In this document: positions 6,001-63,921 of the stretch, piece by piece
Numbering within the stretch: the first letter of the stretch is position 1
How the letters are laid out: each line of letters starts with the position of its first letter
Source: Arcobacter sp.
GTDB taxonomy: Bacteria > Campylobacterota > Campylobacteria > Campylobacterales > Arcobacteraceae
DNA: 64,000 bases
Direction: 5' to 3'
Assembly (NCBI GenBank): GCA_003252105.1
Contig: QKDL01000023.1
Span: 1 to 64,000, forward strand
Notes under the pieces: model-generated
The model's database searches: none
What the model was told of the DNA's origin: nothing
What the model saw: only the letters and a program-made list of their open reading frames with translations
Translations under genes and position numbers: made by a program

Positions 6001-7275
6001 GATGGTACAATTATTGTTGATACATATGTTAGAAACAAAGAGGGTGAAAGTTGGACAAGTTATGATACTAATACCCTTACTACATATAAAACTTTTTCAT
6101 TCAATGTAGACTCAGTTATAGATGGCTTTTCTTTAAATAGTGGAGCAACAATTAGTGGAACAGAGGATGAATTGGTGCCCTTAAATATTACACTTACAAG
6201 TGTAGATTCTTCTGAGAAACTTTCTTCTGTATCAATTAGTGGCTTACCTGATGGATTTTTACTTTTCTATGGAGAAAATTCAGATGGAAGTGGAAAAAGT
6301 CTAGCAAATAACTTAGGTGTGGATGGTAATACTACAATTCAAATGACTTATGGTGTTGATGAAACTGTAGATGTAAATAGATGGAATATCCCTTTAAATA
6401 ATGGAAATCTTCCTACATATATTTGGATACAGACTCCTGAAAATTGGAGTGGTACAATTCCTGATTTATCAGTAATTGCAGTTGATGAATATGGAAATAC
6501 TTTCCCTGAGACAATAACATCTGGAACAATTGATCCTATTGTTGATAGTTTGACATTAAATGCAACTCAGACATTTGGAAAAGAGGGTGAAGATATTTTA
6601 CTTAATTTAAATGCAAATGTTGAAGATCTTGATGGTAGTGAGACTATTACATTAACACTTGTTGGTTTTGGCGATAGTTCTGCTAATTTTAAAGTAGGTG
6701 GCGAAGCTATATCTAGTAGTTATGATTTGGGTACTGATACTTATACAATTGAGGGTATTAATGTTAATGATATAAATGCTTTAAGTGTAACACATGAATC
6801 TATATCAACTACAATAACTGTAGATGCTAAAATGGTAGAAAGTAATGGCAGTGAGTCAAGTTTGGTATCTGATAGTTTTGATATCTCAATTTCAAAAGCT
6901 GTTGCTTCTGCGGGAGATGATACTTTATTATTACAAACTGGAATAAGTTTTGACGGATTAGCTGGAATTGATACTTTGATTGTAAATGGACAAACATTAG
7001 ATCCAAGTCTAATATCAAATATAGAGATTTTAGATTTAAATTCAGGTAATAATAGTATCTCTTTAAGTTTAAATGATATTATGGATATGACTGATAACAA
7101 CAATGAACTTAAAATAATTGGAGATAGTGGTGATAATATTTCGTTTACATCATCTAGTTGGACTCAAGATAATAGTACCTCAAATGGAGATGGTACTACA
7201 ACTTATGAGTATTCAGATGGAGGAAATAATCTTAAATTAACTATTGATGATAATATTAATACTAGTGGATTATAA
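1..7275 (+). CDS. Giant type I secreted adhesin (LapA-like), 3' part
   Basis: The reading frame is open from base 1, so the N-terminus, including any retention module, lies outside the window; about 2,424 residues are visible. The protein is a chain of beta-rich extracellular modules, very rich in Asp, Asn, Thr, Ser and Gly and without visible Cys. Two neighbouring modules near 770-1170 and 1230-1620 share the pattern VKI..YEGD/NTL...VSLVD and resemble Calx-beta or T1SS repeat domains. Later modules carry the ITD/IAD-PVTL joints typical of large repeat adhesins. The last 120 residues (AGDDTLL, GLAGIDTL, SNIEILDL, then a Leu/Asn-rich stretch) match the C-terminal secretion region of LapA/BapA-type proteins. 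Classical GGxGxDxxx RTX nonapeptides are not obvious. The LapG- and LapD-like genes directly downstream support a regulated cell-surface adhesin for biofilm. The secretion ATPase, adaptor and outer-membrane genes are not in the window. Confidence 0.85.
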   Translation, partial: KNGTTQNGDTQYNDGDTISVTISQNSSSGVFTVDTIDDYLADNGENYNLTITNVQKTGEFENVAIGDKNGNFTNVTTTILDNSKPNTPIDLTDDTIESDKEIVVIKLFAADENGDVIKDVNGNYQLANSVDEGNAANYIAYAFEKGTSEYKDSTKLQIQAGSIDVNFNNDEAVGTDEQTKFDGTQDFKNITKTINIGESFSTDTYNDVITENSEVYNVTLDANSYVLNSGNGYESVEIDTTPVETTINDFTAKVFVKIEPVVDTTYEGDSLEYKVSLVDENGNVVTIPTGKSISVDLSYSNNGINPAEADDYTKVNSVTITGGNSEQSFTLPAIDDFYAEGDEGLKITIGNITGDTSIFENILLHTVANGASEDKITVIGTIKDNPANTEQPTDENNVDNSTGSYDEDDTVYVKITHNDSVYEGNTLSHTVTLVDKDGTPITVPAGESITVTLSYSSDTSENADYEGNTKVTQVIITSGNSSVDVENLTIDDFVANENGDNSNESYTLTITDVSQNNSTYENITIDTNNNSVTGEIIDGVTLGIPTNAYVDEDNFDITLPSNEISDTKSLNISAPNGDNGYKLLFDSSVIAKDPDTNLPITLTSNSQNISFDYSTEGKIIATRDDGKKVFEITLNKNVAGGADDNYTYKQYENIDHPDTNSDDNVVLTFGYKIEDQTKTSSVQNFTVTVNDSLPSGTSQNITLDEDSSQLIVISDESFLNGDITLNNGVSGPTVVANGNSIDIYDNLTDQVKVGTLTNNGDGTLTFTPEANYSGTTAGFTYSASDNDGDTAGSTVSITVNPIADKPDMNGANAGLNEGAIKTTPQVLEDNNNDAGVESGALYKATIGLILPQATDIIDLTNNTDNDQPEKLGLITLSSSTTETVIIDGVEHSIDSNGITIFINDIADYHYSGIDTSGAISITQAQFEAIEVKFENDNAVNPKFTISVDEYEVNDDNTLKIGVAKASNSQDYEVDILAVTDPVTLQWNDDPSNLGSFTSSTFTFDNVDEGYGTIDLKALLTNTNGLETDADGDLDGSEHRSYTITGIPEGTIITIGSKSVAADSTGTATINFPDNTADDPDFTMTISEQFSGTINGTITLNVKDTDSDSDDTLNPIQTQSASVNFNMVVNPIADPVTLKVAQAYGEEDAGRTNSNDESTNASVIDAPQDGIELYINVISDDNKDIPGASSTDAKEEYNVTIDGIPDGGSLYVYDNSSSTWKLIDETNAGTDGNLVITDNPDGTWKVLINDYQNDNLPKFIPPYNSDADYTFDISAYSYDNPDSSIAQTLQIDVTVDAVADVPVNDDLNNNTVNDDENDTNSFTLVSTEDNGGINLKAIFNTPTLLDSNDGESGDGSETLTFKVTGLADGFYINGATFIGGTGTSRVWLVDKTELNNDNVTLQTPTHYAGQVDFQIQFVTTEDAGDSKTHAIKDISAMITPVTEGHIASSDIQNEDESKVLNFDFISPDTDDLAAGKESLESFSIDVTGLEAAGITLVSNGVDLTTGKTGYQTLSVTNGVVEAVTATLSEDIDTDYSFNITYTYKDVAVDNNGNTYTDTKTVTDQLYSVTVNAITDDITLAMSTTAMDANISDDAGHVTVTDNGSFTKTLIVTGIDSDGRGDADKDSSEEFTRITVSGVPEGITIPNGIYAGDTGGGNYSGFWYVDIANQALDNDGATYDLVFDVDGSFDINDLGDYQITVTAYNQEKNNDVEQSDSQSFTLTIDTAITGPGPGIPATITAFYQDIDNDLTHDHAYVVSTTADTNITDSDAYEGSVVREDTQFQLSDVLHVETDTAGATSQAFSITLKNVPTGVEVQGMTLNANGFYTLSGTGDQTAIVTKLQSILITPKSNANTDASDIDNTDLNFDVELTTYASGGASNSALINFTASVLPVTDEMDLTIVNDGVTAEDVVQTFSITLDNDADGVNTQIIDGKVYLKLTENYSDTQGTDGLNGTLSYGGSVITVTTVTGVTDVPDGDYYVIENVNYNDTLDFAYTPATNRDGTIIVDTYVRNKEGESWTSYDTNTLTTYKTFSFNVDSVIDGFSLNSGATISGTEDELVPLNITLTSVDSSEKLSSVSISGLPDGFLLFYGENSDGSGKSLANNLGVDGNTTIQMTYGVDETVDVNRWNIPLNNGNLPTYIWIQTPENWSGTIPDLSVIAVDEYGNTFPETITSGTIDPIVDSLTLNATQTFGKEGEDILLNLNANVEDLDGSETITLTLVGFGDSSANFKVGGEAISSSYDLGTDTYTIEGINVNDINALSVTHESISTTITVDAKMVESNGSESSLVSDSFDISISKAVASAGDDTLLLQTGISFDGLAGIDTLIVNGQTLDPSLISNIEILDLNSGNNSISLSLNDIMDMTDNNNELKIIGDSGDNISFTSSSWTQDNSTSNGDGTTTYEYSDGGNNLKLTIDDNINTSGL

Positions 7276-7279
7276 ATAG

Positions 7280-7312
7280 AAATGAAGAGATTTTTAAATC
7301 TCTTCATTTTTG
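7280..7312 (+). terminator. Intrinsic terminator after the adhesin gene
   Basis: A 14-bp perfect stem (AAATGAAGAGATTT, loop TT, then its complement) is followed by a short T run. It begins 5 bases after the adhesin stop codon and ends 15 bases before the lapG-like start. It may limit readthrough from the very long adhesin gene into the two regulators. Confidence 0.75.
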
Positions 7313-7326
7313 TGATAAAATAAAGA

Positions 7327-7926
7327 ATGAGGATATTAATCATATTACTACTTGTTTTTACAGCCTATTCAAAAGAGTTTATAAATACTCAATTAATTCT
7401 TAATGTTGAAAAAAAATATAATCGTTTTGCAAAAAATAGATTTAATGCTTTAAATAGATTATTAAAGCGTTTAGAAAAAAAAGATGAATTAACAAAACTA
7501 CAAGAGGTTAATGATTTTTTTAATAGTGTTGGCTATGGTGAGGATATAGATATATATAAGGTTAATGATTACTGGGCAACACCATTTGAATTTTTAGCTA
7601 AAGATAAAGGAGATTGTGAAGATTATGTTATTGCTAAATATCTAGTTTTAAAATATTTAGGTGTATCTTCTGAAAAAATGTTTTTAACATATGTAAGAGT
7701 TAAGGATTTAGATAGAGCACATATGGTTCTTTCTTATTATAAAACATCAACTTCTGAACCACTTATTTTAGACAGTATTAGAAGAATCATTTTTCCTGCT
7801 TCTAAAAGAAAAGATTTAAAACCAATTTATAATTTCAATCCAAATATTTTAAAAAATGGCAAAAAGACATCTGCTCATAAAAAATGGGATAATTTAATAA
7901 AAAACTTTAGGGAAAATAAAATATGA
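7327..7926 (+). CDS. lapG: LapG-like periplasmic cysteine protease (BTLCP family)
   Basis: A 199-residue protein of the bacterial transglutaminase-like cysteine proteinase family. A signal peptide is visible at residues 1-15 (MRILIILLLVFTAYS). The catalytic triad expected for LapG is present: Cys97 in KGDCEDY, His132 in AHMVL and Asp149 in LILDS. The WATPFEFL stretch just before the Cys is also typical. In the Pseudomonas system LapG cuts the N-terminal retention module of LapA in the periplasm, releasing the adhesin when c-di-GMP is low. The gene sits between a LapA-like adhesin and a LapD-like receptor and overlaps the latter by 4 bases (ATGA), so the two are translationally coupled. The cleavage site in the adhesin cannot be seen because its N-terminus is outside the window. 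Family call is firm; substrate is inferred from context. Confidence 0.88.
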   Translation: MRILIILLLVFTAYSKEFINTQLILNVEKKYNRFAKNRFNALNRLLKRLEKKDELTKLQEVNDFFNSVGYGEDIDIYKVNDYWATPFEFLAKDKGDCEDYVIAKYLVLKYLGVSSEKMFLTYVRVKDLDRAHMVLSYYKTSTSEPLILDSIRRIIFPASKRKDLKPIYNFNPNILKNGKKTSAHKKWDNLIKNFRENKI

Positions 7927-9839
7927 GCTTATTTAAGCAGATGACAATTTTAATATCAGTTATTTTCATAATACTATTTACTTTAATTGTTTCTATTAGT
8001 TTTAATCAAATAAAAGATTCTGCAAAAGAGTCTTTATATAAAAATATCCAAAATAGTGCCTCTAATATTAGTTTATCTATCACAAATGCAAATACAGATA
8101 TAAGTACAATAAAAACAGTTATAAATGCAAGTTTTGATAATGGAAATTATGAAAAAATTGTTTTTAAAGATTTAGAAAATAAAATTATTTATGAAAGAGT
8201 AAAAAAAGAGGAACAATATGAAGAAGATTTGCCTATTTGGTTTATAAAATTTGTAAATATAGATGAGGTATCTGTTTTAGCTACAGTTTCTCAAACTTGG
8301 AAAGTATTAGGAACAATAGAAATCTTTGCAGATAGAGATATCTTTTATATACAATTATATAAAATGTTTATAAGTTTGATAATTACTTTGACTATTACTT
8401 TTTTAACCTTTCTTATTCTTGTATTTATATTTTTAAAATCGATGTTAAAACCCCTTGAAATAATAAAAAAACAAAGTGAAGCAATTATAGATAATAAGTT
8501 TATTTTTTCTGAAAAACTTCCATTTACTTCTGAATTTAAATCTTTGACTATAAATATAAATAGTATGTTGAAAAAAATACAAGAGATATTTAATCATGCA
8601 AACGATATTTTAAAAAGAAATAAAGAGCTGCTATATGTTGATGAACTTACAGGTTTATACAATAGAAAATATCTTGTTATGAAAATAAGTGAATTTTTGG
8701 AAGAAAATAGTATTAATCATTCAGGCTATATAGTTTGTATCGATTTAATCAGAGTTGATTTATTGAATAAAATATTTGGTTATAAAAAAGTTGATAATCT
8801 AATAATTCAAATAGTAAAAGAGATAAAAGAGTTATTTTTAAGATATGAATCAAGTATAATAGTTAGATCAAAAGCAGCAGAATTTATAGTAATTTTGCCA
8901 CGTATAAAAGAGCGTGAAGCCAAAGATGTTTCAGAACAAATATCTTCAAAATTAAAAGAATTATTATCTTTTGTAGAAGATGATGAAATAGATTTTTTTA
9001 TAGGACTTTGTAATTTTAAAAATGAAAAAATATATAGTGATATTCTAAGTAAAATTGATTATACTCTTTGTCAAACAAAAATACAAAATAATAATTATAA
9101 TGGCTATTACTACTTACAAAAAGATATAGTACATAATACAAGAGATGATTGGAGAAATATTATAAATAATGCTATAAGTAATGATTATTTTTATTTGGTT
9201 TTTAAAGATATAGTTTCATTAAATTCTTCAAAAATAGTTTATAAATCGATTAGTTTTGGTATAAAAACTTATGATAAAGATTTTTCTTATAGTGAATTTA
9301 TTGCTTCTGCAATTGAGCTAAAATTATTAGAAAAGATATATTTGAAAATTATAGAAAAACTGTTATGTTTAGATAAATATAATAAAAGAGTTACTATACA
9401 AATTCCAAATAAATTTGTAGAACATTTACCTTTTGAAAAATTAATGAAACTTTTTGAACGAAAGAATAATTTTGTAGATATTGTTTTTGAATTAGAAGAG
9501 GAGGTTTTTTTTAAATATAAATACAATTGTTTGACATTTATTGATTTATTGAGAGATTATGGCTTTGGTATTGCTGTATTTAATTTTATGGCAATTAGTG
9601 ATGATTATATTTATTTAAAAGAACAAAAACCAGAGTTTATTAAACTAAATAGATATTTTTTAGAAACAAGTGAAAATTTAGATGTATTGAAAATTATAAA
9701 AGAATCATTAGATATTGAAGTTATTGCTACATCTATAGATAATGATAAGGATTTAGATTTTATTAATAAAAAAGGAATAAAACTAATTACAGGAATAGTT
9801 ACTGAAAAACTTTTACAAGATAGTTCTAAAAATACATAA
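7923..9839 (+). CDS. lapD: LapD-like inner-membrane receptor, degenerate GGDEF and EAL
   Basis: A 638-residue protein with a membrane helix at about 6-26, a periplasmic LapD/MoxY-type domain, a second helix at about 145-172, a HAMP-like linker, a GGDEF-like domain (about 235-395) and an EAL-like domain (about 400-630). The periplasmic domain ends in TWKVLGTIEI, which fits the Trp-x3-Gly element that LapD uses to grip LapG. The GGDEF motif is replaced by SKAAEF, so no cyclase activity is expected. The EAL motif is replaced by YKSISF and the later acidic metal-binding positions are also lost (KLN instead of KID/KLD, ATSID instead of EGVE), so no phosphodiesterase activity is expected. Such proteins act as c-di-GMP sensors that sequester LapG. 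Erosion here is heavy enough that c-di-GMP binding itself is uncertain. It is coupled to lapG by a 4-base overlap. Confidence 0.85.
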   Translation: MSLFKQMTILISVIFIILFTLIVSISFNQIKDSAKESLYKNIQNSASNISLSITNANTDISTIKTVINASFDNGNYEKIVFKDLENKIIYERVKKEEQYEEDLPIWFIKFVNIDEVSVLATVSQTWKVLGTIEIFADRDIFYIQLYKMFISLIITLTITFLTFLILVFIFLKSMLKPLEIIKKQSEAIIDNKFIFSEKLPFTSEFKSLTININSMLKKIQEIFNHANDILKRNKELLYVDELTGLYNRKYLVMKISEFLEENSINHSGYIVCIDLIRVDLLNKIFGYKKVDNLIIQIVKEIKELFLRYESSIIVRSKAAEFIVILPRIKEREAKDVSEQISSKLKELLSFVEDDEIDFFIGLCNFKNEKIYSDILSKIDYTLCQTKIQNNNYNGYYYLQKDIVHNTRDDWRNIINNAISNDYFYLVFKDIVSLNSSKIVYKSISFGIKTYDKDFSYSEFIASAIELKLLEKIYLKIIEKLLCLDKYNKRVTIQIPNKFVEHLPFEKLMKLFERKNNFVDIVFELEEEVFFKYKYNCLTFIDLLRDYGFGIAVFNFMAISDDYIYLKEQKPEFIKLNRYFLETSENLDVLKIIKESLDIEVIATSIDNDKDLDFINKKGIKLITGIVTEKLLQDSSKNT

Positions 9840-9913: not shown

Positions 9914-10636
9914 ATGAAAAAGATTTCACTTTTATTGGCATTGTGTGTTATAGCAAATGCACATTTTCTTACTTTTTTATCTTCTACAGATAATGTAAAA
10001 TCAAAATCAGAAATGAATGTTAATTTTGAAGCGATGTTTATACATCCATTTGAGCAAACTGGTATGGTAATGGAAAAACCAATTGGAATATACTTTGAAA
10101 ATAAAAAAGAGGTTTTGCCTTTAGAAGAGATGACTAAACTTGACCATAAAGCTTGGAAAACATCTTATAAAATAAAAAGACCTGGGACATATAAGTTTTA
10201 TGTGCAACCACAACCGTATTTTGAACCAGCAGAAGAAAAGTTTATATCTCATGTTCCAAAATTGATTGTTTCTGCTTTTGGATTAGAAGATGGTTGGGAT
10301 GAACCAATTGGTTTAAAATATGAAATAATACCAATGGTGAAACCTTTTGGTCTTTATGAAGGAAATCTTTTTCAAGGAAAGGTTTTGCATAATGGAAAAG
10401 CAGCTTCAAATGTAGAGGTTGAAGTGGAGCTTTACAATGAATTTGGACTAAAAGCACCAAGTGATGCCCATGTGACACAAGTTGTAAAAACTGATGAAAA
10501 TGGAAACTTTTCTTTTACAATGAATCACAAAGGTTGGTGGGGATTTGCAGCTTTAATAGAAGAGGGTGAAAAAGAGTATAATGGAAAAAAATATCCAATA
10601 GAAAATGGAGCATTAATCTGGGTAAAGGCTTATTAA
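9914..10636 (+). CDS. nikK: NikK-like periplasmic nickel/cobalt protein (DUF4198)
   Basis: A 240-residue secreted protein of the DUF4198 family found with nickel ECF transporters. The signal peptide covers residues 1-16 ([16 protein letters not shown]) and cleavage would leave His as residue 1 of the mature protein (HFLTFLS). The C-terminal half (about 145-240) looks like a beta-sandwich, with [18 protein letters not shown] and a [10 protein letters not shown] element like carboxypeptidase-regulatory or CopC-type folds. It is first in a tight five-gene operon, 3 bases before nikM. In the NikKMLQO arrangement, NikK and NikL are accessory extracytoplasmic components, probably helping deliver metal to NikM. 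Nickel against cobalt cannot be settled from sequence alone. Confidence 0.8.
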
Positions 10637-10639
10637 AAG

Positions 10640-11242
10640 ATGCATATATCAGATGGTATTTTATCAAGTGAGGTTGTTATCACAACTTCACTTATTAGTG
10701 TAGGATTTTTACTTTATTCATTAAAAAATCTTAAAAATAGAAAAATTGCACTTATTGCAGCTATGGGAGCTATATTTTTTATCTCTTCATTTATCCATAT
10801 CCCTTTAGGCCCTACGCAGATACATTTAGTTCTTATTGGTGTTATTGGGATAGTTATTGGTTCTTCTGTATTTTTTGCTATATTGATTGCTTTATTGTTA
10901 CAAGCATTACTTTTAGGTTATGGTGGAATTAGTTCTATTGGTGTAAATGTGTTTATTATGGCAACACCAGCTTTTATAATCTATCTATTGACTAAGTATA
11001 GGTTTTTAAATTTTTTTAATGAGAAGATTAAGTATTTTTTAATTGGAGCTATTCCTGTATTAGTTTCAACTGTATTGTTAGCTTTAGTATTAGCATTTTC
11101 TAAACAAGAGTATGAATATGCTTCATATACTATTATTCTTGCAAATCTTCCTGCTGTTCTTATAGAAGGATTTATTACAATTTTTTTAATAAACTATATT
11201 AAAAAATCGATGCCAGAACTATTAAAAGAGGTGAACTTATGA
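10640..11242 (+). CDS. nikM: ECF transporter substrate-binding membrane subunit NikM/CbiM
   Basis: A 200-residue polytopic membrane protein starting MHISDGIL, the invariant N-terminus of the CbiM/NikM family, in which the amino terminus and His2 help bind the metal ion. Further family features are the SSFIHIPLGPTQIHL segment, whose His residues complete the metal site, and about six hydrophobic helices. It is the specificity (S) component of a group I energy-coupling-factor transporter for nickel or cobalt. The next gene overlaps it by 4 bases (ATGA). Length is normal for a CbiM without fused CbiN. Confidence 0.92.
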   Translation: MHISDGILSSEVVITTSLISVGFLLYSLKNLKNRKIALIAAMGAIFFISSFIHIPLGPTQIHLVLIGVIGIVIGSSVFFAILIALLLQALLLGYGGISSIGVNVFIMATPAFIIYLLTKYRFLNFFNEKIKYFLIGAIPVLVSTVLLALVLAFSKQEYEYASYTIILANLPAVLIEGFITIFLINYIKKSMPELLKEVNL

Positions 11243-55497: not shown

Positions 55498-56970
55498 ATG
55501 GTTAGTTCAATGTGGAATGGAGTTATGGGTATACAAGTCCATGACCGAGCATTAAATGTAGTAGCAAATAACTCAACTAATACTAATGTGTATGGTTATA
55601 AACCAGATGAAGTGAGTTTTACTGATTTATTATATTCTGCAGATGGAACTGGAAAAGGTGTACAGCTTAGTTCTGTAAAAAAAGTATTTAATCAAGGTCA
55701 AATACAACCAACTGATAATCCTTATGATGTAGCAATTGAAGGAAGTGGTTATTTTGTTCTTAATGATATAAAATCAAATGAATTATTTTATACAAGAGCA
55801 GGAAACTTTCAAATGGGGAATGATGGTTTATTACAAACTCCTGATGGGATGAAAGTTTTAGGACTTCAATCAGATGCACCAATTGTAACAAGTACAGATG
55901 CAAATGTTGTTGAATTTAACAATGATTATACAAAATTTGTTGCATCAGATTTTGTTAATAGTAATACAGATTTTTTTCAATCAGTTAATGCAAGAGCAAC
56001 TGATTATACCTCAACGGCAACTGATATTGGTGAAAGTGGGAATGGATATAAATCAAAATCAACTTTAACATTAGAAATAGATAAAATGATTTTGGATTAT
56101 AGAGAAAAATTATCTAATTATGGTTCTAACTCAACAGTTGATTCAATCCCTTCTACTACACAAATTACCCAGTTTAATTTTGGCTCTTCAATGAATCTAT
56201 TAAATGATGAAAATGATTATATAGAAGTTACAATTGATAATACAGCACATAGGGAGTATTTTGATACAGATATAGAGACAACTCTAAAAAACTTTTCAGA
56301 TAGAATATCTGATACTGTTGGATTAACAGCATCAGTTGATACTACAACAGGAGTATTAAATATTGAGACAACTATTCCAGGGAAAAGTGCAAAAATCACT
56401 CAAGGAATAATTAATAACAGGGAAGTTTTTTCTGCAACTTTACAAGAAGCAACTTTAGGAACAGGTTTAGGAATGGTGGAAAGTTCTAAAGCAGCATTGA
56501 TGTCAGCTCTTCAATCAGCTGGTGCTGAGTTTCTTGAGATTAAAAATAATATTTCATATACTAATCAAGAAGATTTAACTACTTTAGGAACTATTCAGTT
56601 AAAACTTGAAAATATGACTTTATCTGAAAATACTTTTGGTACAATATCTATTGAAGAAAATGGTCTTGTTTTTTTAGAAGATGGGGACAATAAATTTGTT
56701 GTTGGAAAAATACAAACAGTAGCTTTTAGAGCAGAACAAGAGTTACAACCAACTGGAAGTAATCTTTTTGCTATGACAGAAGAATCTGGTGAACCATATT
56801 TTGCAAAAGATATAAATAAAGTAGTTTATAATTCATTAGAGTTGAGTAATGCTAATTTAACAGATGGTTTGGCAACAATATTAGGGTTGCAAAGAGCTTT
56901 TGAAGCAAATGCAAAATCGATAACTACGTCAGATGAGTTGTTAAAAACGGCAATTGCACTTAGAAAATAG
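55498..56970 (+). CDS. FlgE-like hook protein, shorter paralog
   Basis: A 490-residue axial protein. N-terminal SSMWNGVMGIQVHDRALNVVANN has the variant HDRALNVVANNSTNTNVYGYKPDE, cut, and lacks the classic SNNIANVNTxGYK; the C-terminal helix is LATILGLQRAFEANAKSITT. It lies directly after flgD, the position of flgE in many genomes. Helicobacter and Campylobacter also have a FlgE-like gene after flgD besides their main hook protein. It may form a hook-rod junction or a minor hook component. A strong hairpin separates it from the longer paralog. Confidence 0.8.
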   Translation: MVSSMWNGVMGIQVHDRALNVVANNSTNTNVYGYKPDEVSFTDLLYSADGTGKGVQLSSVKKVFNQGQIQPTDNPYDVAIEGSGYFVLNDIKSNELFYTRAGNFQMGNDGLLQTPDGMKVLGLQSDAPIVTSTDANVVEFNNDYTKFVASDFVNSNTDFFQSVNARATDYTSTATDIGESGNGYKSKSTLTLEIDKMILDYREKLSNYGSNSTVDSIPSTTQITQFNFGSSMNLLNDENDYIEVTIDNTAHREYFDTDIETTLKNFSDRISDTVGLTASVDTTTGVLNIETTIPGKSAKITQGIINNREVFSATLQEATLGTGLGMVESSKAALMSALQSAGAEFLEIKNNISYTNQEDLTTLGTIQLKLENMTLSENTFGTISIEENGLVFLEDGDNKFVVGKIQTVAFRAEQELQPTGSNLFAMTEESGEPYFAKDINKVVYNSLELSNANLTDGLATILGLQRAFEANAKSITTSDELLKTAIALRK

Positions 56971-57050: not shown

Positions 57051-59444
57051 ATGGTTGGAGCATTATGGACAGGGATTTCAGGTCTTGCATCTCAACAAAG
57101 AGCGCTAGATAATGAATCAAATAATATTGCAAACGTTAACACTGTTGGATATAAAGCATCAAGAATCTCTTTTGCTGACCAAATGTATCAAGATAGAATC
57201 GGTAAAGGTTCTAAAATCCTTGATTCGGAAAAACTATATACTCAAGGAAACTTAAAACCTACTGGAGTTGATTACGATTTAGCTCTGAGTGGTGAAGGTT
57301 TTTTTGTTGTAAAAAACACAAGGCTTAGTGGTAGTTCAGAAGAGCAATATACTAGAGCTGGTAACTTTAGAATGGGTGATAACGGTACTTTACAAGATGC
57401 TGCTGGAAATGAAGTGCAAGGGTGGCCTATGGTTGCTGTTGATACTGCAAACGATGTAACATCTACAAACCCAAATACAACAATGTTTAATGATGAATAT
57501 ACAAAGTTATTAGGTACAAAAATTATTAAACACTCAACATATGTTGATACTATTACTGCTAGAGCGACTGATTATACACAAACAGCAAAATCAGATTCTT
57601 TGACTATCTTTGATGGGGCAGGATATAAAACAAAATCTTCAAAGATTTCAGATATTGAAGAAGCAATTAAAGATTATACTACTTGGTTACAAAGATTATC
57701 AGAAGAACCAGATGGTTCATCTGCAACTTCTACAGCTCAAGTATCTCAGATAAATTTTAAATCAGGACAAAATGGTTTACTAGCAAATGAAGGGCAACAA
57801 GTATATGTTACTATTGATGGAAATAAAATTTCTCAAAACTATGTAGCTGTAACAGCTGATTCAGATTTTATTACTAATTTTGTGAATTATTCAGTACCAT
57901 CAACGGGTGCAGCTACTGCAGCAGGTACTACAATTACAATTAATAGTGCAGATGATTTAACTAGATATGAAGTAACTGTTGATAGTGAAACTGTATTTTA
58001 TGATGCAGGAATTGGAGAAAGTATAGATGACATAAGAGCAGGATTGCAAGATGCTATTAATCAGAATCCTACTATTACAGGTTCATATACATTAACAAAT
58101 ACTACTAATACAATTACATTAAGTGGTGGTACTGTGTCTGCTGCATCTTATCCAAGTACTTTAGACATAGAATATGATGTTGCAGCAAGTAGAATAGCTA
58201 CTTATAAAGGGTTAGCTAATGAGATTATGGAGAAAGTAAAAGGAGTAAAAGCTTACCTAGCAGAAGAAACTTCTGGAGGAACTGATGTTGACTTTTTAGA
58301 AGAGGGTGAATCATATACTTTAAATACAAAAGATTATGATGAAATGTTAAAAGGTATTATCCAAATAGAATCTTTAATTCCTGGTAAAGAATTTAAGATT
58401 TCAGAGGTTGGTGAAATATCAGGAAATACTACTAACTTAGGTGATTTTCAAACTACAGTTAATGCAGTTGCTGGTTCAGGTCTTGGGGCTTTAGAGAGTT
58501 CAAAAGAAGCTTTAGCAAGACTTATTACTGGTAACCAAAGAGATGTATATACAGCTTCTGATTTAGGTCTTGATGGTACAACTGTACAAGATTTTACTTA
58601 TGGTATTTCTATTTATGATAAAGAGTTAGGTAAAAATATTCCTGTACCTGGGTTTACAAATGCAACTCCACCTGAGACTCCATTTAATATATTTTTAGAT
58701 GGTGTTACATCAGTTGATGATATTGTGTCGTATATAAATGGAGACCAACCGTATAAATATATAAGTGATTTAGATGGTAGTGTTCAAACAACAAGTTCTT
58801 TTGTTTTATCTGATTATATTAAAGCATCAAATATAAATGGTGCATTAGTTATTGAAACATTAGATTCAAATTATGATGTAGAGTTTAATGGCTCTTTAAA
58901 AATCTCTAGTGATCAATCATTAGATGATGGTACAGCAGCTTTAACTGCTACTTATACTCCAATTGATAAAAATAGTGATTATAGTGGTAGAGCAGGTGCA
59001 GGAGCTGAGTTTATTGAACTTATTAATACTGTTGACCAAACTGCAACTAAAGGTTCATTACAATTAAGACTTGATACTTTAGGTATCTCTGAGTCTGCAT
59101 TTGGATCTTTTTCAGTTGATGCTGCTGGACTTGTGACAATGACACAAGATGGTGCAGATTTTGTAATTGGTCAAATTGCTATTGCTTTATTTAATAATAA
59201 TAGGGGATTAACACCAATCGGAGATAACTTACTTGCAAAAAGTAATAACTCAGGTGATCCTATATATAATTTAAATAATAATAAAACTGCTAGAGTTGAA
59301 TCTCAACAACTAGAGTTGAGTAATGCTGACTTAAGTGAAAGTTTAGTTAATTTGATGGTATTCCAAAGAGCATTTGAAGCAAATGCTAAATCAATTACAA
59401 CATCAGATACAATTTTAAATACATTAATTAACTTAAAACGATAA
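57051..59444 (+). CDS. flgE: Flagellar hook protein FlgE, long paralog
   Basis: A 797-residue hook protein: N-terminal GALWTGISGLASQQRALDNESNNIANVNTVGYKASR, cut at the end as the classic SNNIANVNTVGYK, and C-terminal LVNLMVFQRAFEANAKSITTSD. Its size fits the large hook proteins of Campylobacterota (700-840 residues), with extra outer domains at about 250-600 rich in Thr, Ala and Asp. These domains face the medium and vary between species. It has its own AAAGGATAAG ribosome site. Confidence 0.92.
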   Translation: MVGALWTGISGLASQQRALDNESNNIANVNTVGYKASRISFADQMYQDRIGKGSKILDSEKLYTQGNLKPTGVDYDLALSGEGFFVVKNTRLSGSSEEQYTRAGNFRMGDNGTLQDAAGNEVQGWPMVAVDTANDVTSTNPNTTMFNDEYTKLLGTKIIKHSTYVDTITARATDYTQTAKSDSLTIFDGAGYKTKSSKISDIEEAIKDYTTWLQRLSEEPDGSSATSTAQVSQINFKSGQNGLLANEGQQVYVTIDGNKISQNYVAVTADSDFITNFVNYSVPSTGAATAAGTTITINSADDLTRYEVTVDSETVFYDAGIGESIDDIRAGLQDAINQNPTITGSYTLTNTTNTITLSGGTVSAASYPSTLDIEYDVAASRIATYKGLANEIMEKVKGVKAYLAEETSGGTDVDFLEEGESYTLNTKDYDEMLKGIIQIESLIPGKEFKISEVGEISGNTTNLGDFQTTVNAVAGSGLGALESSKEALARLITGNQRDVYTASDLGLDGTTVQDFTYGISIYDKELGKNIPVPGFTNATPPETPFNIFLDGVTSVDDIVSYINGDQPYKYISDLDGSVQTTSSFVLSDYIKASNINGALVIETLDSNYDVEFNGSLKISSDQSLDDGTAALTATYTPIDKNSDYSGRAGAGAEFIELINTVDQTATKGSLQLRLDTLGISESAFGSFSVDAAGLVTMTQDGADFVIGQIAIALFNNNRGLTPIGDNLLAKSNNSGDPIYNLNNNKTARVESQQLELSNADLSESLVNLMVFQRAFEANAKSITTSDTILNTLINLKR

Positions 59445-59475: not shown

Positions 59476-59493
59476 AGTATTTTGAGGATAAAT

Positions 59494-59823
59494 TTGGATA
59501 ATTTTTTATTAATAACAATAATTGGAATATTGCTTTTATACTATTTTTCAAGTACAAATGTTTACAAATCTTTATATAGAAAATTGAATGAAGAAAAAAA
59601 TATACTTGAAACTGATAATAAAAAACTTCAAGATATAATAGATAGATATGAAAAACAAGTAAAAGTTAGTGCTGCAACATTGAAAACTAATCAAGATAAC
59701 CTACAAGTTGCAAGAGATGATTTGCAAAAGTTAAGATTAGAAAACAATGAACTAAAACATGAAATTGAAATTTTAGAAAAAAGAACAGAAGAACTATACG
59801 CACAAGTAAATACAATGATTTAG
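59494..59823 (+). CDS. Small membrane-anchored coiled-coil protein
   Basis: A 109-residue protein. A membrane helix at about 4-22 (LLITIIGILLLYYFSS) is followed by a continuous coiled coil to about 105 (EEKNILETDNKKLQDIIDRYE, cut; heptads of Leu). I start at TTG 59494, with GAGGA 6 bases upstream, instead of the in-frame TTG at 59482, which overlaps that site. Function unknown. Being flanked by flgE and a TPR gene in a flagellar cluster suggests a structural or stator-linked part, but this is only context. Confidence 0.65.
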   Translation: MDNFLLITIIGILLLYYFSSTNVYKSLYRKLNEEKNILETDNKKLQDIIDRYEKQVKVSAATLKTNQDNLQVARDDLQKLRLENNELKHEIEILEKRTEELYAQVNTMI

Positions 59824-59831
59824 GATTTTTA

Positions 59832-61817
59832 GTGAAAGTTATTTTTTTTATTTTTTCTCTTTTAATCTCTTTTAACCTTTATGCTAATCAGATAGACTCT
59901 CAACCTGATATTTTATTTAAACACAAAAAAATAGAAAAGGATCAAGAGCAATTTGCATTACAAATGGAGTTTAATAAAGCAGTATTACTTCTAGAAAAAG
60001 GTGAATATAAAAAAGCGATTGATACTTTTAAAACAACATCCGATGCACTTAAAATCCCTTCATTTTTAAATATTGGTATTGCTTATTATAAATTAGATCA
60101 AATAGAAAATGCTCTTTTATATCTAAACAATATATATGAATATAAAGAAGCAATTTATACAGATACTTATTCTTATATTTCGGCTGCATATTATTTATAT
60201 CAAATAAGTAATGATAGAACTTATTTGGATTCAATTGTTGAGATTACAAGAAAATATAAAAATCTAACAGAACATTCAAAAAGATTAGTTGTTGACACAT
60301 ATATCATTCTTAGAAATTATGAAAGTGCCCTTAATTTATTAAAAACTATGCAATTTCAAGATGACTTAAAGATTGCATTGTTGTATATAAAATTAAAAGA
60401 CTATGTAAGTGCTGAAAAATATTTAGTTAAAGCAAAAGAGAATAGTGTCAATAAAAATAAAATAGATGAAATCCTTTGGTTTATGGTATTTAGGGATTTA
60501 AAATCAAATCAATTAGAAAAATTAAAAGAGCATTTAGAAGAGATAAACAAAAGAAAAGATAGTTTTAAAATACATATGTCATACCCTTTAGAGATATATT
60601 TTAACAATAATAAATTTACAACAAAAGAGTATTTATCTTTTATTACAAAATTTTCTCCTGAAAGAAAAAGTGATTATATATATTACTTTGCCCCATTTAT
60701 TTTTTCAGATACTCAAGAGATTGTTTATGATTTATCAAAAGGGTTTATTTTTAAAGATAAACAAAATGTAAAAAGCTTAGAACAGATGGTTTCTTTTAAT
60801 TCTAAGTTTATAGAGATAATAAAAGAAGACCCTATCGTTAGAGTAAAAAAACTAAAAGATTATATAAAAGATGATTCAAATTCATATATGTATTATAATC
60901 TTGCTTTATGTTATGCTCAAATATTTGATTATCATAATGCATACAAATATTTTTCAAAAGCTTATAAATTAAATCCAGGAAATAAACTTTATTCTTCAAT
61001 GACATTAATTACTGCAAATAGAATAGATTTAAAATTGTCAGATTATGAGTATATAGAGAATAATATCAAATCAAGTAAAGGTTTATATAAATATTTCGGA
61101 CAAATATTATATAAAGTTATGTTTAATCCTGAGTTCAATATTAGTATTGATCCTCTTACTTATAAGAAAACTATTTTTTATAAAGCCTTAGATTATTTAG
61201 TTAAGATGGATGAAGGTATTGTAACTTCTGACCATATTTTATTAACAGAGCATTATAAAGACCCTTTTGTCTATCTGTTAAACTTAACACTAAGAAGAAC
61301 CAATGAAAATGATTTTAATTATTTTTCTAGATTACAAGATGAAACACCTTTAAAAATCAATAATAATTTTTTAGAAGGACCACCAATAATAACAGCTTTT
61401 TATTTTGATTTATTAAAAGCAATAGGTTTATTTCAGAGGGCTGACTTCTCCCAGAATGGTGAACAAAGTATCACATATTTAAGAACAAAGGTATTAGTGG
61501 ATTTACACTTTAATAAATCACAAGAAGCTTTAATTATCTTAGATAAACTACAAAAAGAGTATAAACTTGAAGATAAATATACAATGTTTTTAATTGTTGC
61601 AGCATATTTAAATGGTGGTAAGTACAATGAAGCTTCATTACAAATATCATTGATAAAAGCTGTTTTAGATGATAATGATGCAAATTTTTTAACAGGTGTA
61701 CAACTGATTCAAGAACTTAAATTAAATAGTGTATCTCAGTATTTTAAAAAACCTTATATGGATTCAATTATAGATTTTAGACTAAGTAAAATTGACGATT
61801 TTTTAGAATCTATGTAA
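59832..61817 (+). CDS. Periplasmic TPR protein, PflA-like candidate
   Basis: A 661-residue exported protein. Signal peptide at about 1-18 (FSLLISFNLYA). TPR-type helical pairs are visible at about 45-75 (FNKAVLLLEKGEYKKAIDTF), 76-105 (LNIGIAYYKLDQIENALLYL), 345-385 (YNLALCYAQIFDYHNAYKYFSKAYKLNP, cut) and 560-600. No other domain is seen. In Campylobacter and Helicobacter, PflA is a secreted TPR protein of about 790-800 residues that, with PflB, forms part of the periplasmic scaffold holding the stators. This gene has the right type and a place next to hook and motor genes but is shorter, so the match is a hypothesis. Start is GTG at 59832. Confidence 0.7.
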   Translation: MKVIFFIFSLLISFNLYANQIDSQPDILFKHKKIEKDQEQFALQMEFNKAVLLLEKGEYKKAIDTFKTTSDALKIPSFLNIGIAYYKLDQIENALLYLNNIYEYKEAIYTDTYSYISAAYYLYQISNDRTYLDSIVEITRKYKNLTEHSKRLVVDTYIILRNYESALNLLKTMQFQDDLKIALLYIKLKDYVSAEKYLVKAKENSVNKNKIDEILWFMVFRDLKSNQLEKLKEHLEEINKRKDSFKIHMSYPLEIYFNNNKFTTKEYLSFITKFSPERKSDYIYYFAPFIFSDTQEIVYDLSKGFIFKDKQNVKSLEQMVSFNSKFIEIIKEDPIVRVKKLKDYIKDDSNSYMYYNLALCYAQIFDYHNAYKYFSKAYKLNPGNKLYSSMTLITANRIDLKLSDYEYIENNIKSSKGLYKYFGQILYKVMFNPEFNISIDPLTYKKTIFYKALDYLVKMDEGIVTSDHILLTEHYKDPFVYLLNLTLRRTNENDFNYFSRLQDETPLKINNNFLEGPPIITAFYFDLLKAIGLFQRADFSQNGEQSITYLRTKVLVDLHFNKSQEALIILDKLQKEYKLEDKYTMFLIVAAYLNGGKYNEASLQISLIKAVLDDNDANFLTGVQLIQELKLNSVSQYFKKPYMDSIIDFRLSKIDDFLESM

Positions 61818-61915: not shown

Positions 61916-62239
61916 ATGGAATTAGGTAGAATTGCAGAAATAGACAATGCAAAAGTTAACGAAATAGAAAGAGTTAAAACTGTTAAAGAGGTTGATGAAA
62001 AATCTAAGATAGTAGATGATGAACAACATAGAGCAGCCAAGGGAAAAACTTCTGAATCTGAAGTAAATGAAGTTATTTTAGATAATGTAAAGTTTGGTTA
62101 TAACAAATCTTCAAAAGATTTCTTTGTAAAAGTTACAAGAGGGGATATAGAGTATAAATATCCTACTGAAGATATGATGAGAATTAAAGCACAAATGCTT
62201 AGCGAAATAGAAAAATTACAAAAAGAATCTAATAATTAA
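61916..62239 (+). CDS. FlaG-like flagellar protein
   Basis: A 107-residue protein. The N-terminal half is charged and helical. The C-terminal half (about 58-100) has VKFGYNKSSKDFFVKVTRGD, YKYPTEDMMRIKAQM, a pattern like FlaG (beta hairpin, then P-x-E-D/E-M and a helix). FlaG affects filament length in some species; its mechanism is unclear. It stands just before fliY. The strong AAAGGAGG ribosome site suggests high expression. Family match is moderate. Confidence 0.6.
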   Translation: MELGRIAEIDNAKVNEIERVKTVKEVDEKSKIVDDEQHRAAKGKTSESEVNEVILDNVKFGYNKSSKDFFVKVTRGDIEYKYPTEDMMRIKAQMLSEIEKLQKESNN

Positions 62240-62253
62240 AAAGGTTAGTTACA

Positions 62254-63165
62254 TTGGCATCTGATTTATCAAGTTTTTTAAAAGATGAATTAGCTAATAC
62301 ATTAGAACAGTTACTTTCAAAAGGTGTTACAGTTGACTCTGTTAGCAAACTTGATATTGAAAGCTTAGATGATTCACAATGTATTAATATTTCAATTAAG
62401 TTAGAGTTTGCAGATATATCAATTAGTTTGAATTTTTTCGTTCCAACAATTACAGCTACAAAATTTGAATATTTTATGTTGGGAGGAATGGGTGATCTTA
62501 AAGAACATATTGATGATGAGATTACTGATGCAGTAAATGAGATTATCTCAAACATTTGTGGTAGTTTTTGTACCTCAGTTAATGCACAGGGATTTCCTGA
62601 TGTATCTTCAGTTAAATCGGAAGTAGTTGGCTCTAGTATAAAAGAGTGTACACAAATAAAAGAATTAGACAATGTATATATATTTGACTTATCTTTAGAT
62701 AATGAAAAACTACCTATATATATAAGTTTTGATAAACTTTCATTAGCTTATTTTACACAAATTACTGGTTATAATGAAGATGATTCAAAAAACACAAATG
62801 GTACAGACACTACTTCGGGGTCTCCTTCACTTATGAATTCTCAATCAAAACAAGCTCCTAAACAATTAGGTATAAGTTCTTTATTATCAGAAGATTCTGC
62901 AGAAAATCTTCAACTTCTTTTTGGAATAAAACTTAAATTGAGTGTAAGATTAGGTACTAAAAGTGTATTATTAAAAGATATTCTAAGATGGGATATTGGA
63001 GAGATTATTGAACTTGAACAAATGGTAAATGAACCTTTAGAAATATTGGTTAATGGTGTTAAAATAGGTGAAGGTGAAGCTGTTATCGTAGAAGGAAAAT
63101 TTGGTTTAAAAGTTAAAAATATTGGTGATGGTTCTACTAAATTAAATCAATTAGGGTTAAAATAG
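62254..63165 (+). CDS. fliY: Flagellar motor switch protein FliY
   Basis: A 303-residue protein with a CheC-like domain at about 20-165 and a C-terminal SpoA (FliN) domain at about 220-295 (LQLLFGIKLKLSVRLGTKSVLL, NEPLEILVNGVKIGEGEAVIV, each cut). A low-complexity Ser/Asn/Thr linker joins them. In the phosphatase helix, DAVNEIISNICGS has Glu four before Asn, where CheC-type phosphatases have three. It may thus be a structural switch part rather than a CheY-P phosphatase, but the alignment is by eye. Start is TTG at 62254, 14 bases after the FlaG-like stop. Confidence 0.9.
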   Translation: MASDLSSFLKDELANTLEQLLSKGVTVDSVSKLDIESLDDSQCINISIKLEFADISISLNFFVPTITATKFEYFMLGGMGDLKEHIDDEITDAVNEIISNICGSFCTSVNAQGFPDVSSVKSEVVGSSIKECTQIKELDNVYIFDLSLDNEKLPIYISFDKLSLAYFTQITGYNEDDSKNTNGTDTTSGSPSLMNSQSKQAPKQLGISSLLSEDSAENLQLLFGIKLKLSVRLGTKSVLLKDILRWDIGEIIELEQMVNEPLEILVNGVKIGEGEAVIVEGKFGLKVKNIGDGSTKLNQLGLK

Positions 63166-63921
63166 ATGGATAAGAGTACAGCAGGTGGATTGGGTGCTGG
63201 TTGGGCATTAATTGCCTTAGCGATTATTTTAGGTGGAGTTGGTTTCGGACCATATATTGATATTCCTTCTGTAGTTATTGTATTTGGTGGTACTATAGCT
63301 GTTACTGCAGGACAATTTGAAGCATCAGATTTAAAAAGAATTACACCAGCTATGAAAGTGGCTTTTAATGAAGTAAAAGTTGAGTCTTTGCCAGAGTTAG
63401 TTGAAAAAATAGTTTTTTATGCTACAGAGATTAAAAAACATGGGGTAATGCATATTGAACAAAAGGTTTTAGAGGAACAAAATCCTTTTTTTAAAGAAGC
63501 TTTTCAACTTTTAGTTGATGGTACTAAAGCAGAAACAATTGAACCATTACTTGAAACTAAGTTAGAATATATGAACAAAAGACATAGTGTAATGATAAGT
63601 ATTTTTGGAAATATGGGTGGTACTGCAGGTTCAATGGGAATGATTGGTACATTAGTTGGACTTGTTGCAATGCTTGCAAATCTTTCAGATCCCGCTTCTG
63701 TTGGACCAGCTATGGCTGTTGCTTTACTTACAACAATGTATGGGGCTTTAGTTGGTACTTTATTTGCTGGACTTATAGAAAGTAAACTTTCTCAAAAACA
63801 TTCTATTGAAGAAACTGCTTGTGAGGTAATAATTAAGGGTACAACTATGATAGCTAATGAAGAATCTATAGGTAATATTAAAATGCAGCTAAATTCTATA
63901 TTGGTTGACCCAGAAGAGTAA
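63166..63921 (+). CDS. motA: Flagellar stator protein MotA
   Basis: A 251-residue membrane protein with four helices (about 9-27, 33-50, 145-168, 178-205). Family features are VFGGTIAVTAGQFE in helix 2, a cytoplasmic loop of about 90 residues with charged torque residues, and GNMGGTAGSMGMIGTLVGLV in helix 3, with the Pro in DPASVGPAMAVALLTTMYG. It forms the proton or sodium channel with MotB. It follows fliY without a gap and is 3 bases before motB. Confidence 0.97.
   Translation: MDKSTAGGLGAGWALIALAIILGGVGFGPYIDIPSVVIVFGGTIAVTAGQFEASDLKRITPAMKVAFNEVKVESLPELVEKIVFYATEIKKHGVMHIEQKVLEEQNPFFKEAFQLLVDGTKAETIEPLLETKLEYMNKRHSVMISIFGNMGGTAGSMGMIGTLVGLVAMLANLSDPASVGPAMAVALLTTMYGALVGTLFAGLIESKLSQKHSIEETACEVIIKGTTMIANEESIGNIKMQLNSILVDPEE

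Follow-up and report, generated by a model that had tools for sequence, protein, structure and literature searches.

The window analysed here is a stretch of 64,000 nucleotides from Arcobacter sp. (contig QKDL01000023.1 of assembly GCA_003252105.1), and the subject is a pair of genes in a flagellar cluster near its end. All window features given below lie on the forward strand. The first gene of the pair (59494-59823, TTG start) encodes a small membrane protein of 109 residues with a coiled coil, and the second (59832-61817, GTG start) encodes a tetratricopeptide repeat (TPR) protein of 661 residues. The list of open reading frames (ORFs) and the gene matches agree with the first-pass annotation of this DNA in that the two frames are 8 bases apart and lie between flgE and the FlaG-like, fliY and motA genes. 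That annotation had further suggested that the TPR protein is a candidate for the scaffold protein PflA and that the small protein may be a new partner of it.

The order of the two genes is well conserved. The small ORF stands directly upstream of the TPR gene in all 16 Arcobacteraceae genomes that have the latter, and the 17th genome of the family, G142, has neither gene. The named collection contributes 43 loci with relatives of the TPR protein (40-68% identical over the best segment), of which 31 are labelled Arcobacteraceae, Arcobacter, Aliarcobacter, Halarcobacter, Malaciobacter or Poseidonibacter. The same order is seen at 39 of the 43; at the other four loci the contig starts within, or at the beginning of, the TPR gene. 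Since the order is kept in the 16 genomes and in the 39 loci, the pairing is not due to chance. The distance between the two genes, which depends on the start codons chosen, is 0-52 bases in the 38 loci measured and below 20 bases in 36 of them. With starts set by a length-based choice, the small gene begins with TTG at 31, with GTG at 3 and with ATG at 5 of the 39 loci. A putative Shine-Dalgarno-like GAGGA (59484-59488) precedes the TTG of the small gene in the window, and a putative AGGA of the TPR gene (59822-59825) overlaps the stop codon of the small gene; both were read by eye. There is also an alternative in-frame TTG for the small gene at 59482, upstream of the one chosen at 59494.

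The TPR protein and the PflB family

By sequence, profile and predicted fold alike, the TPR protein is a homologue of PflB and not of PflA. A phmmer search against the PDB listed two PflB chains at the top: 9leq_B, titled 'Motility protein PflB', with E = 5.3e-14, and 9hmf_L with E = 7.9e-14, where residues 46-638 of the query correspond to 180-802 of the 820 residues of PflB. Designed TPR proteins followed from E = 2.5e-6. In profile-profile comparisons the 39 Arcobacteraceae sequences matched PflB of other families with E = 1.8e-33 over 595 columns, as against E = 5e-4, a probability of 31% and 201 columns for PflA. Here, the Arcobacteraceae alignment consisted of 38 of the 43 fetched loci and the window protein; L129, L137, L141, L147 and L148 were left out because they are cut by contig ends, and L110 and L123 were read from the start of the frame, there being no start codon near. 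The PflB set of other families comprised 13 of 14 loci, L030 being left out for its interrupted frame.

The structure of the TPR protein was modelled with AlphaFold2 from the same 39-sequence alignment (mean predicted local distance difference test score, pLDDT, 87.3; predicted template modelling score, pTM, 0.81), with low confidence at residues 12-30 and 292-309. The only strands of at least 3 residues in the model are residues 253-257 (60588-60602) and 647-651 (61770-61784) and, as there are no others, these two presumably pair with each other. C. jejuni PflB is described as mainly helical with two 5-residue strands (PMC12222027), and a short strand pair is given as a PflB feature in PMC11870540 as well (here and below, published statements are taken from excerpts of the papers cited). 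The N-terminal beta-sandwich domain of PflA is absent from the model. The two best Foldseek matches are PflB chains (E = 4.0e-17 and 2.3e-16), and the next chain is at 6.9e-6. VIA-align likewise gave 9leq_B first (Z 26.2, root-mean-square deviation, rmsd, 6.7 over 577 residues) and the next entry at Z 13.4 over 212 residues, in a table that is without 9hmf_L and in which 38 of 1000 chains were left unaligned. In other words, the comparisons by profile and structure that the first-pass annotation had proposed for PflA all point to PflB. The window protein shares with C. jejuni PflB (9hmf_L, 9leq_B) the TPR superhelix over PflB residues 178-819, the two 5-residue strands and the single copy per genome; it differs in that the Arcobacteraceae gene sits in a flagellar cluster beside flgE. 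As a side observation, a metagenome-assembled genome whose record is titled Helicobacter pylori PMSS1 (L137) carries a gene for PflB of the Arcobacteraceae type (43% identity over the best segment) and looks mislabelled or contaminated.

The conspicuous difference between the two groups lies at the N terminus. As judged from the aligned sequences, the Arcobacteraceae protein lacks the N-terminal cytoplasmic tail, the membrane helix and the linker of PflB: residues 42-653 of the model align to PflB 178-819 (VIA-align), and the part before about residue 178 of C. jejuni PflB is replaced by a signal-peptide-like start. In PflB of other families a membrane helix begins at residue 40-76 in all 13 aligned sequences, and the tail before it is net acidic in 12 of the 13. 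The Arcobacteraceae proteins have an N-terminal hydrophobic segment in 39 of 39 sequences (window means 0.68-2.07), which is followed in 34 by a signal-peptidase-I-like motif, and no subsequent 19-residue window reaches 1.6 in any of the 39, the protein studied here included. Its predicted signal peptide spans about residues 1-19 (59832-59888, ...FNLYA-N), as judged from the hydrophobic segment and the motif rather than by a dedicated predictor. The first description of the large protein as a secreted TPR protein is borne out by this start together with the TPR motifs. The open frames of the TPR gene are 667-697 residues long in the 16 genomes and 663-697 residues in the loci of the named collection (318, 405, 408 and 436 residues in the four that are cut by contig ends), and therefore have no space for the missing N-terminal part. 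The transmembrane motif is one of two features by which PflB has been defined, and C. jejuni without the N-terminal cytoplasmic region of PflB has its motility reduced to 50% (PMC11870540). Because the motif is absent from 39 of 39 Arcobacteraceae sequences and present in 13 of 13 others, the Arcobacteraceae protein is, by this definition and on the aligned sequences, a PflB homologue or variant and not a canonical PflB.

A better PflA homologue lies elsewhere in the same genome, between genes resembling flhB and fliI (G000:C4:56298-58286, equal to L103:1501-3489), which is one of the findings that the first-pass annotation had named as refuting its proposal. A Campylobacter-type PflA query (L041), which matches the PflA chain 9hmf_K in the PDB with E = 9.3e-230, found only one of the 17 Arcobacteraceae genomes (G120, E = 4.8e-5); the G120 gene, used as a query in turn, gave a match in all six Arcobacteraceae genomes searched, its own included. 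The profile of the six candidates matched PflA with E = 6.5e-33 over 602 columns and PflB with E = 0.0077. A search of the PDB with the candidate returned nothing significant; the kinship to PflA was seen in this profile comparison, in which the PflA alignment consisted of 20 PflA sequences of the 30 loci from the order-wide search and three other loci. That the TPR protein of the window is itself PflA is thus hardly credible: it is secreted and built of TPR, as is C. jejuni PflA (9hmf_K), a protein of the same disk, but it belongs to a different family, for which all the comparisons speak, and PflA has a gene of its own. What remains of the original assignment is membership of the PflA/PflB scaffold.

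The Arcobacteraceae PflA candidate is shortened as well. It aligns to C. jejuni PflA from about position 156 on, which by alignment leaves it with no N-terminal beta-sandwich and with little of the loop by which C. jejuni PflA grips PflB. The C. jejuni protein no longer dimerises with PflB when its residues 16-168 are deleted (PMC12222027), and its loop at residues 126-163 wraps around PflB (PMC11870540). After the signal peptide the Arcobacteraceae proteins have a conserved tail with the consensus KKDFYYSFIDS, which is aligned with the end of the PflB-wrapping loop and is perhaps a minimal clasp for PflB. The candidate of the window's genome shares the DFYYSFIDS-like start that the family conserves, and it has a pair of C-terminal cysteines. 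PflA and PflB homologues have been reported for Arcobacter from BLASTP searches (PMC5758724) and are implied by PMC11870540. The shortened architecture is not mentioned in the excerpts of PMC5758724, PMC11870540, PMC9321776 and PMC13023049, although part of it may appear in Extended Data Figs 9 and 12 of PMC11870540, which deal with the order of the pfl genes and the structures of PflAB.

The small protein and its distribution

The small protein was first described as a membrane-anchored coiled coil, which agrees with a single hydrophobic helix followed by a stretch with a 3.5-residue period. The predicted transmembrane helix comprises residues 5-23 (59506-59562) and the coiled-coil part residues 24-108 (59563-59817). 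The observed power of the period was reached by 13 of 2000 shuffles for the Arcobacteraceae alignment and by 76 of 2000 for the alignment of the relatives linked to rpiB that are described below. AlphaFold2 predicts one helix over residues 2-108 (mean pLDDT 93, pTM 0.44). In Pfam, NCBIfam and the PDB only generic coiled-coil matches were found; they were either under the cut-offs or weak and inconsistent, and were set aside.

According to the positive-inside rule, the positively charged flank of a membrane helix is cytoplasmic. The window protein has no lysine or arginine before the helix and four within 15 residues after it, and the pattern is the same in all 30 sequences inspected (0 before, 3-5 after). 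Because the charges follow the helix and never precede it, the coiled coil is predicted to be cytoplasmic.

The small protein is an orthologue of a family of about 110 residues that is linked to rpiB in other Campylobacterales and to which C. jejuni Cj0926 apparently belongs. The Arcobacteraceae profile matched 34 genomes of other families with one match each, the open frames being 111-133 residues long in 32 and 201 and 219 residues in two. In all 34 loci rpiB lies directly upstream, and in 26 apt is within reach downstream, mostly adjacent. A profile of the rpiB-linked proteins (A2), built from 14 of the 34, was compared with the Arcobacteraceae profile using hhalign, which gave a probability of 98.8% and E = 1.2e-16 over 104 columns. 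The rpiB-linked relatives searched share the N-terminal membrane helix, and their coiled coil is colinear with that of the small protein. Cj0926 itself was compared by its description only: in a study of immunodominant proteins it appears, together with the adenine phosphoribosyltransferase Cj0927, as a 'putative membrane protein' of 110 residues (PMC3667084), and thus shares length, membrane annotation and the position before apt. Cj0926 is also listed, at -6, in an expression study of C. jejuni in mucus. Literature searches, one of which included the names Cj0926 and HP0573, gave no function and no flagellar link for this family in the excerpts returned.

The position of the gene differs between the two groups, i.e. 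it follows rpiB outside the Arcobacteraceae and stands beside pflB inside. No ORF of the small type was found within 1.5 kb after rpiB in the five Arcobacteraceae genomes examined. Together with the place of the gene in the flagellar locus, this is read as a relocation of the gene.

The distribution of the small gene was compared with that of flagellar genes in 199 genomes of the order, using counts compiled from profile and protein match tables. The A2 profile found the gene in 142 of the genomes, and its union with the Arcobacteraceae profile in 147. The comparison with PflA was made in the 182 genomes outside the Arcobacteraceae, as PflA of the latter is too divergent for the query; here, both genes are present in 127 genomes and both are missing in 40. 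With FliP, both are present in 142 of the 199 genomes and neither in 27, and with PflB the numbers are 117 and 41. As PflB was searched with the divergent protein of the window, the misses of this query say little, and the PflB counts include a weak and probably spurious match in family f18 (G036, E = 4.2e-4, residues 5-105). The Fisher p of 1.6e-25 takes no account of how the genomes are related and is not read as a probability.

The small gene, FliP, PflA and PflB are all missing in 25 of the 199 genomes, which belong to the families f1 (G142), f3, f6 (16 genomes), f10 (G122), f11, f14, f15, f16 and f18. Several of these losses were thus probably independent events, though three of the genomes (G145, G179 and G192) are only 71-85% complete. 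Family f18 is a special case, as FliP is present in 14 of its 15 genomes and neither the small gene nor PflA in any. It looks like the Nitratiruptor lineage, whose flagellum was acquired from Aquificota (PMC9321776). A PflA homologue has been reported in that lineage (PMC11870540); the L041-type query found none in f18.

The rpiB gene is retained in 37 of the 39 genomes without the small gene. The small gene is absent from all 30 rpiB loci fetched from such genomes. In 17 of them the frames of rpiB and apt overlap or are separated by less than 100 bases, in 2 apt is further away and in 11 it is not within reach. Since rpiB stays, often next to apt, where the small gene is gone, these genome comparisons show the small gene to go with the ancestral Campylobacterales flagellum and not with its rpiB and apt neighbours.

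Proposed roles of the two proteins

Taken together, we consider it probable that the locus holds two flagellar genes that are neighbours in Arcobacteraceae, an anchorless PflB homologue and a Cj0926-type orthologue that acts on the cytoplasmic side of the membrane. The anchorless PflB would be secreted as a soluble periplasmic protein and form the rim of the proximal disk, with PflA instead of a membrane helix keeping it in place. Because the Arcobacteraceae PflA is without the beta-sandwich and most of the gripping loop, it would have to grip PflB differently, perhaps via the short conserved tail at the start of the mature protein. The small protein, probably an overlooked part of the flagellum, may be a structural part or an assembly factor, with a coiled coil that would extend to parts in the cytoplasm, e.g. 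the stator, the C-ring or the export gate. A common role in the motor and co-production, rather than binding between the proteins, would explain why the two genes stand together. It is doubtful that the small protein pairs directly with the TPR protein, since the coiled coil is predicted to be cytoplasmic and the TPR protein periplasmic. Moreover, five genomes (G187, G144, G026, G056 and G001) have orthologues of the small protein and a PflB with its own helix, encoded by separated genes. Of the original proposal for the small protein, its conservation and apparent flagellar role hold, and its part as a new partner of the TPR protein is what the topology and these genomes make doubtful.

Several observations weigh against this reading. 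The TM-scores of the TPR model to PflB in Foldseek are only moderate (0.58-0.62, rmsd 8.3-8.8). The A2 profile recovers 11 of the 16 Arcobacteraceae small proteins at E = 0.001 and misses that of the window, and the orthology therefore leans on the Arcobacteraceae profile and on the profile-profile match; coiled-coil profiles are prone to false matches, a risk that the single match per genome, the equal length and the fixed gene order only limit. The predicted topology comes from charge counts with just 0-6 residues ahead of the helix, and a start at TTG 59482 would add one arginine there. The co-occurrence is imperfect: the small gene is alone in 4 and PflA in 11 of the 182 genomes (all 15 are drafts of 90-480 contigs), FliP is alone in 25 (14 of them in f18) and the small gene in 5 (all with PflA), and the small gene is found without a PflB match in 30 genomes and PflB without the small gene in 11. 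Co-occurrence, furthermore, indicates dependence on the flagellum and not a place in the motor. Finally, the binding of the shortened PflA to PflB is assumed from published tomograms of A. butzleri (PMC5758724).

We tentatively suggest, as one possibility, that in members with the ancestral flagellum the Cj0926-type family is a structural part of the motor, whose cytoplasmic coiled coil may be among the 'unidentified cytoplasmic proteins' to which a share in holding the stator complexes has been ascribed. The Arcobacteraceae motor would then have a soluble PflB rim and a clasp-less PflA. In C. jejuni the PflB rim is anchored in the inner membrane and is needed for stators to be seen (PMC11870540). 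The motor of A. butzleri has a 16-fold proximal ring of the PflB type and no stator density, which was read as a sign of dynamic stators (PMC5758724). The soluble rim and the clasp-less PflA, if true, could explain the missing density, a correlation in one lineage, and would make the Arcobacteraceae a natural experiment on the roles of the anchor and the clasp. A membrane protein of 110 residues that is missing where the flagellum was lost or apparently replaced is also a candidate for a motor or assembly part that has been overlooked in well-studied bacteria, and its gene has perhaps been hidden so far by its place among housekeeping genes. The analysis gives a solid correction from PflA to PflB and links this membrane protein family to the flagellum; the excerpts of the literature searched nowhere describe the family as flagellar.

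The small protein may, on the other hand, be a flagellum-dependent regulator or a polarity factor, e.g. a membrane landmark for flagellar placement, rather than a part of the motor. Co-occurrence alone cannot tell such a role from a structural one, and the conserved C-terminal residues of the coiled coil could serve to recruit a partner in the cytoplasm. The position of the Arcobacteraceae gene among structural genes (hook, scaffold, C-ring and stator) speaks weakly against it, and we regard this role as possible without favouring it.

It is unlikely that the coiled coil lies in the periplasm and tethers the soluble PflB rim there in place of the lost helix. The adjacency of the two genes at such short distances and the loss of the PflB anchor in the same lineage would fit a tether. 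Contrary to it, the charges come after the membrane helix in all 30 sequences, an argument that in Arcobacteraceae depends on the start codon, and orthologues of the small protein are present where PflB retains its own helix.

A split of an ancestral pflB, with the small protein as the detached N-terminal part and the TPR protein as the rest, would account for the fact that the latter misses exactly the N-terminal part of PflB and has a membrane protein encoded directly upstream, but it is highly improbable, since orthologues of the same length stand separately beside rpiB in genomes that also have a full-length PflB, only about 4 residues precede the helix of the small protein as opposed to 40-76 in PflB, and several loci of other families have pflB downstream of a serS-like gene (assigned by eye) and not beside the small gene.

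Known small flagellar proteins were also considered as identities of the small protein. FlgV is likewise a small flagellar membrane protein of Campylobacterota, but it has two membrane helices and its gene follows flhG (PMC10655999, PMC11607428), whereas the small protein has one helix and is encoded elsewhere; it was rejected. A separate ORF after a flhG-like ORF in G120 fits FlgV by eye; an ORF judged FlgV-like by eye, after the flhG-like gene of an Arcobacteraceae genome, is at L098, reverse strand, 10417-10746. According to PMC9321776 flgVWX were not found in Arcobacter, and according to PMC10655999 and PMC11607428 FlgV is present there. FlgW and FlgX were rejected as well, being encoded by different genes. 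FlgX, a stator chaperone, resembles the small protein as a small Campylobacter flagellar protein on the cytoplasmic side, where the small protein is predicted to be; it differs in having 165 residues and no membrane helix, and its gene is Cjj81176_0199 (PMC6686046).

Neighbouring genes and other features of the window

The pair is preceded by tandem hook-protein-like genes, at 55498-56970 (recognised by eye) and at 57051-59444; the latter, the flgE-type gene, was assigned from the ORF list and profile-library matches. Downstream follow the FlaG-like gene (61916-62239), fliY (62254-63165) and a gene identified by eye as motA (63166-63921). The match of fliY to the FliY model has E = 3e-43 and 148 bits, where the cut-off is 219. 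The first-pass annotation had listed motAB here; motA is in the window and motB is beyond its end. The FlaG-like protein is far under the cut-off of the FlaG model (E = 0.0012, 19 bits against 117), yet a similar ORF is found at this place in 14 of the 16 Arcobacteraceae loci.

At the other end of the window (310-9839), a repetitive adhesin-like ORF of 2321 residues is followed by a LapG-like protease ORF and then by a GGDEF/EAL-like membrane ORF. By eye, this arrangement resembles an adhesion system of the LapA/LapG/LapD type.

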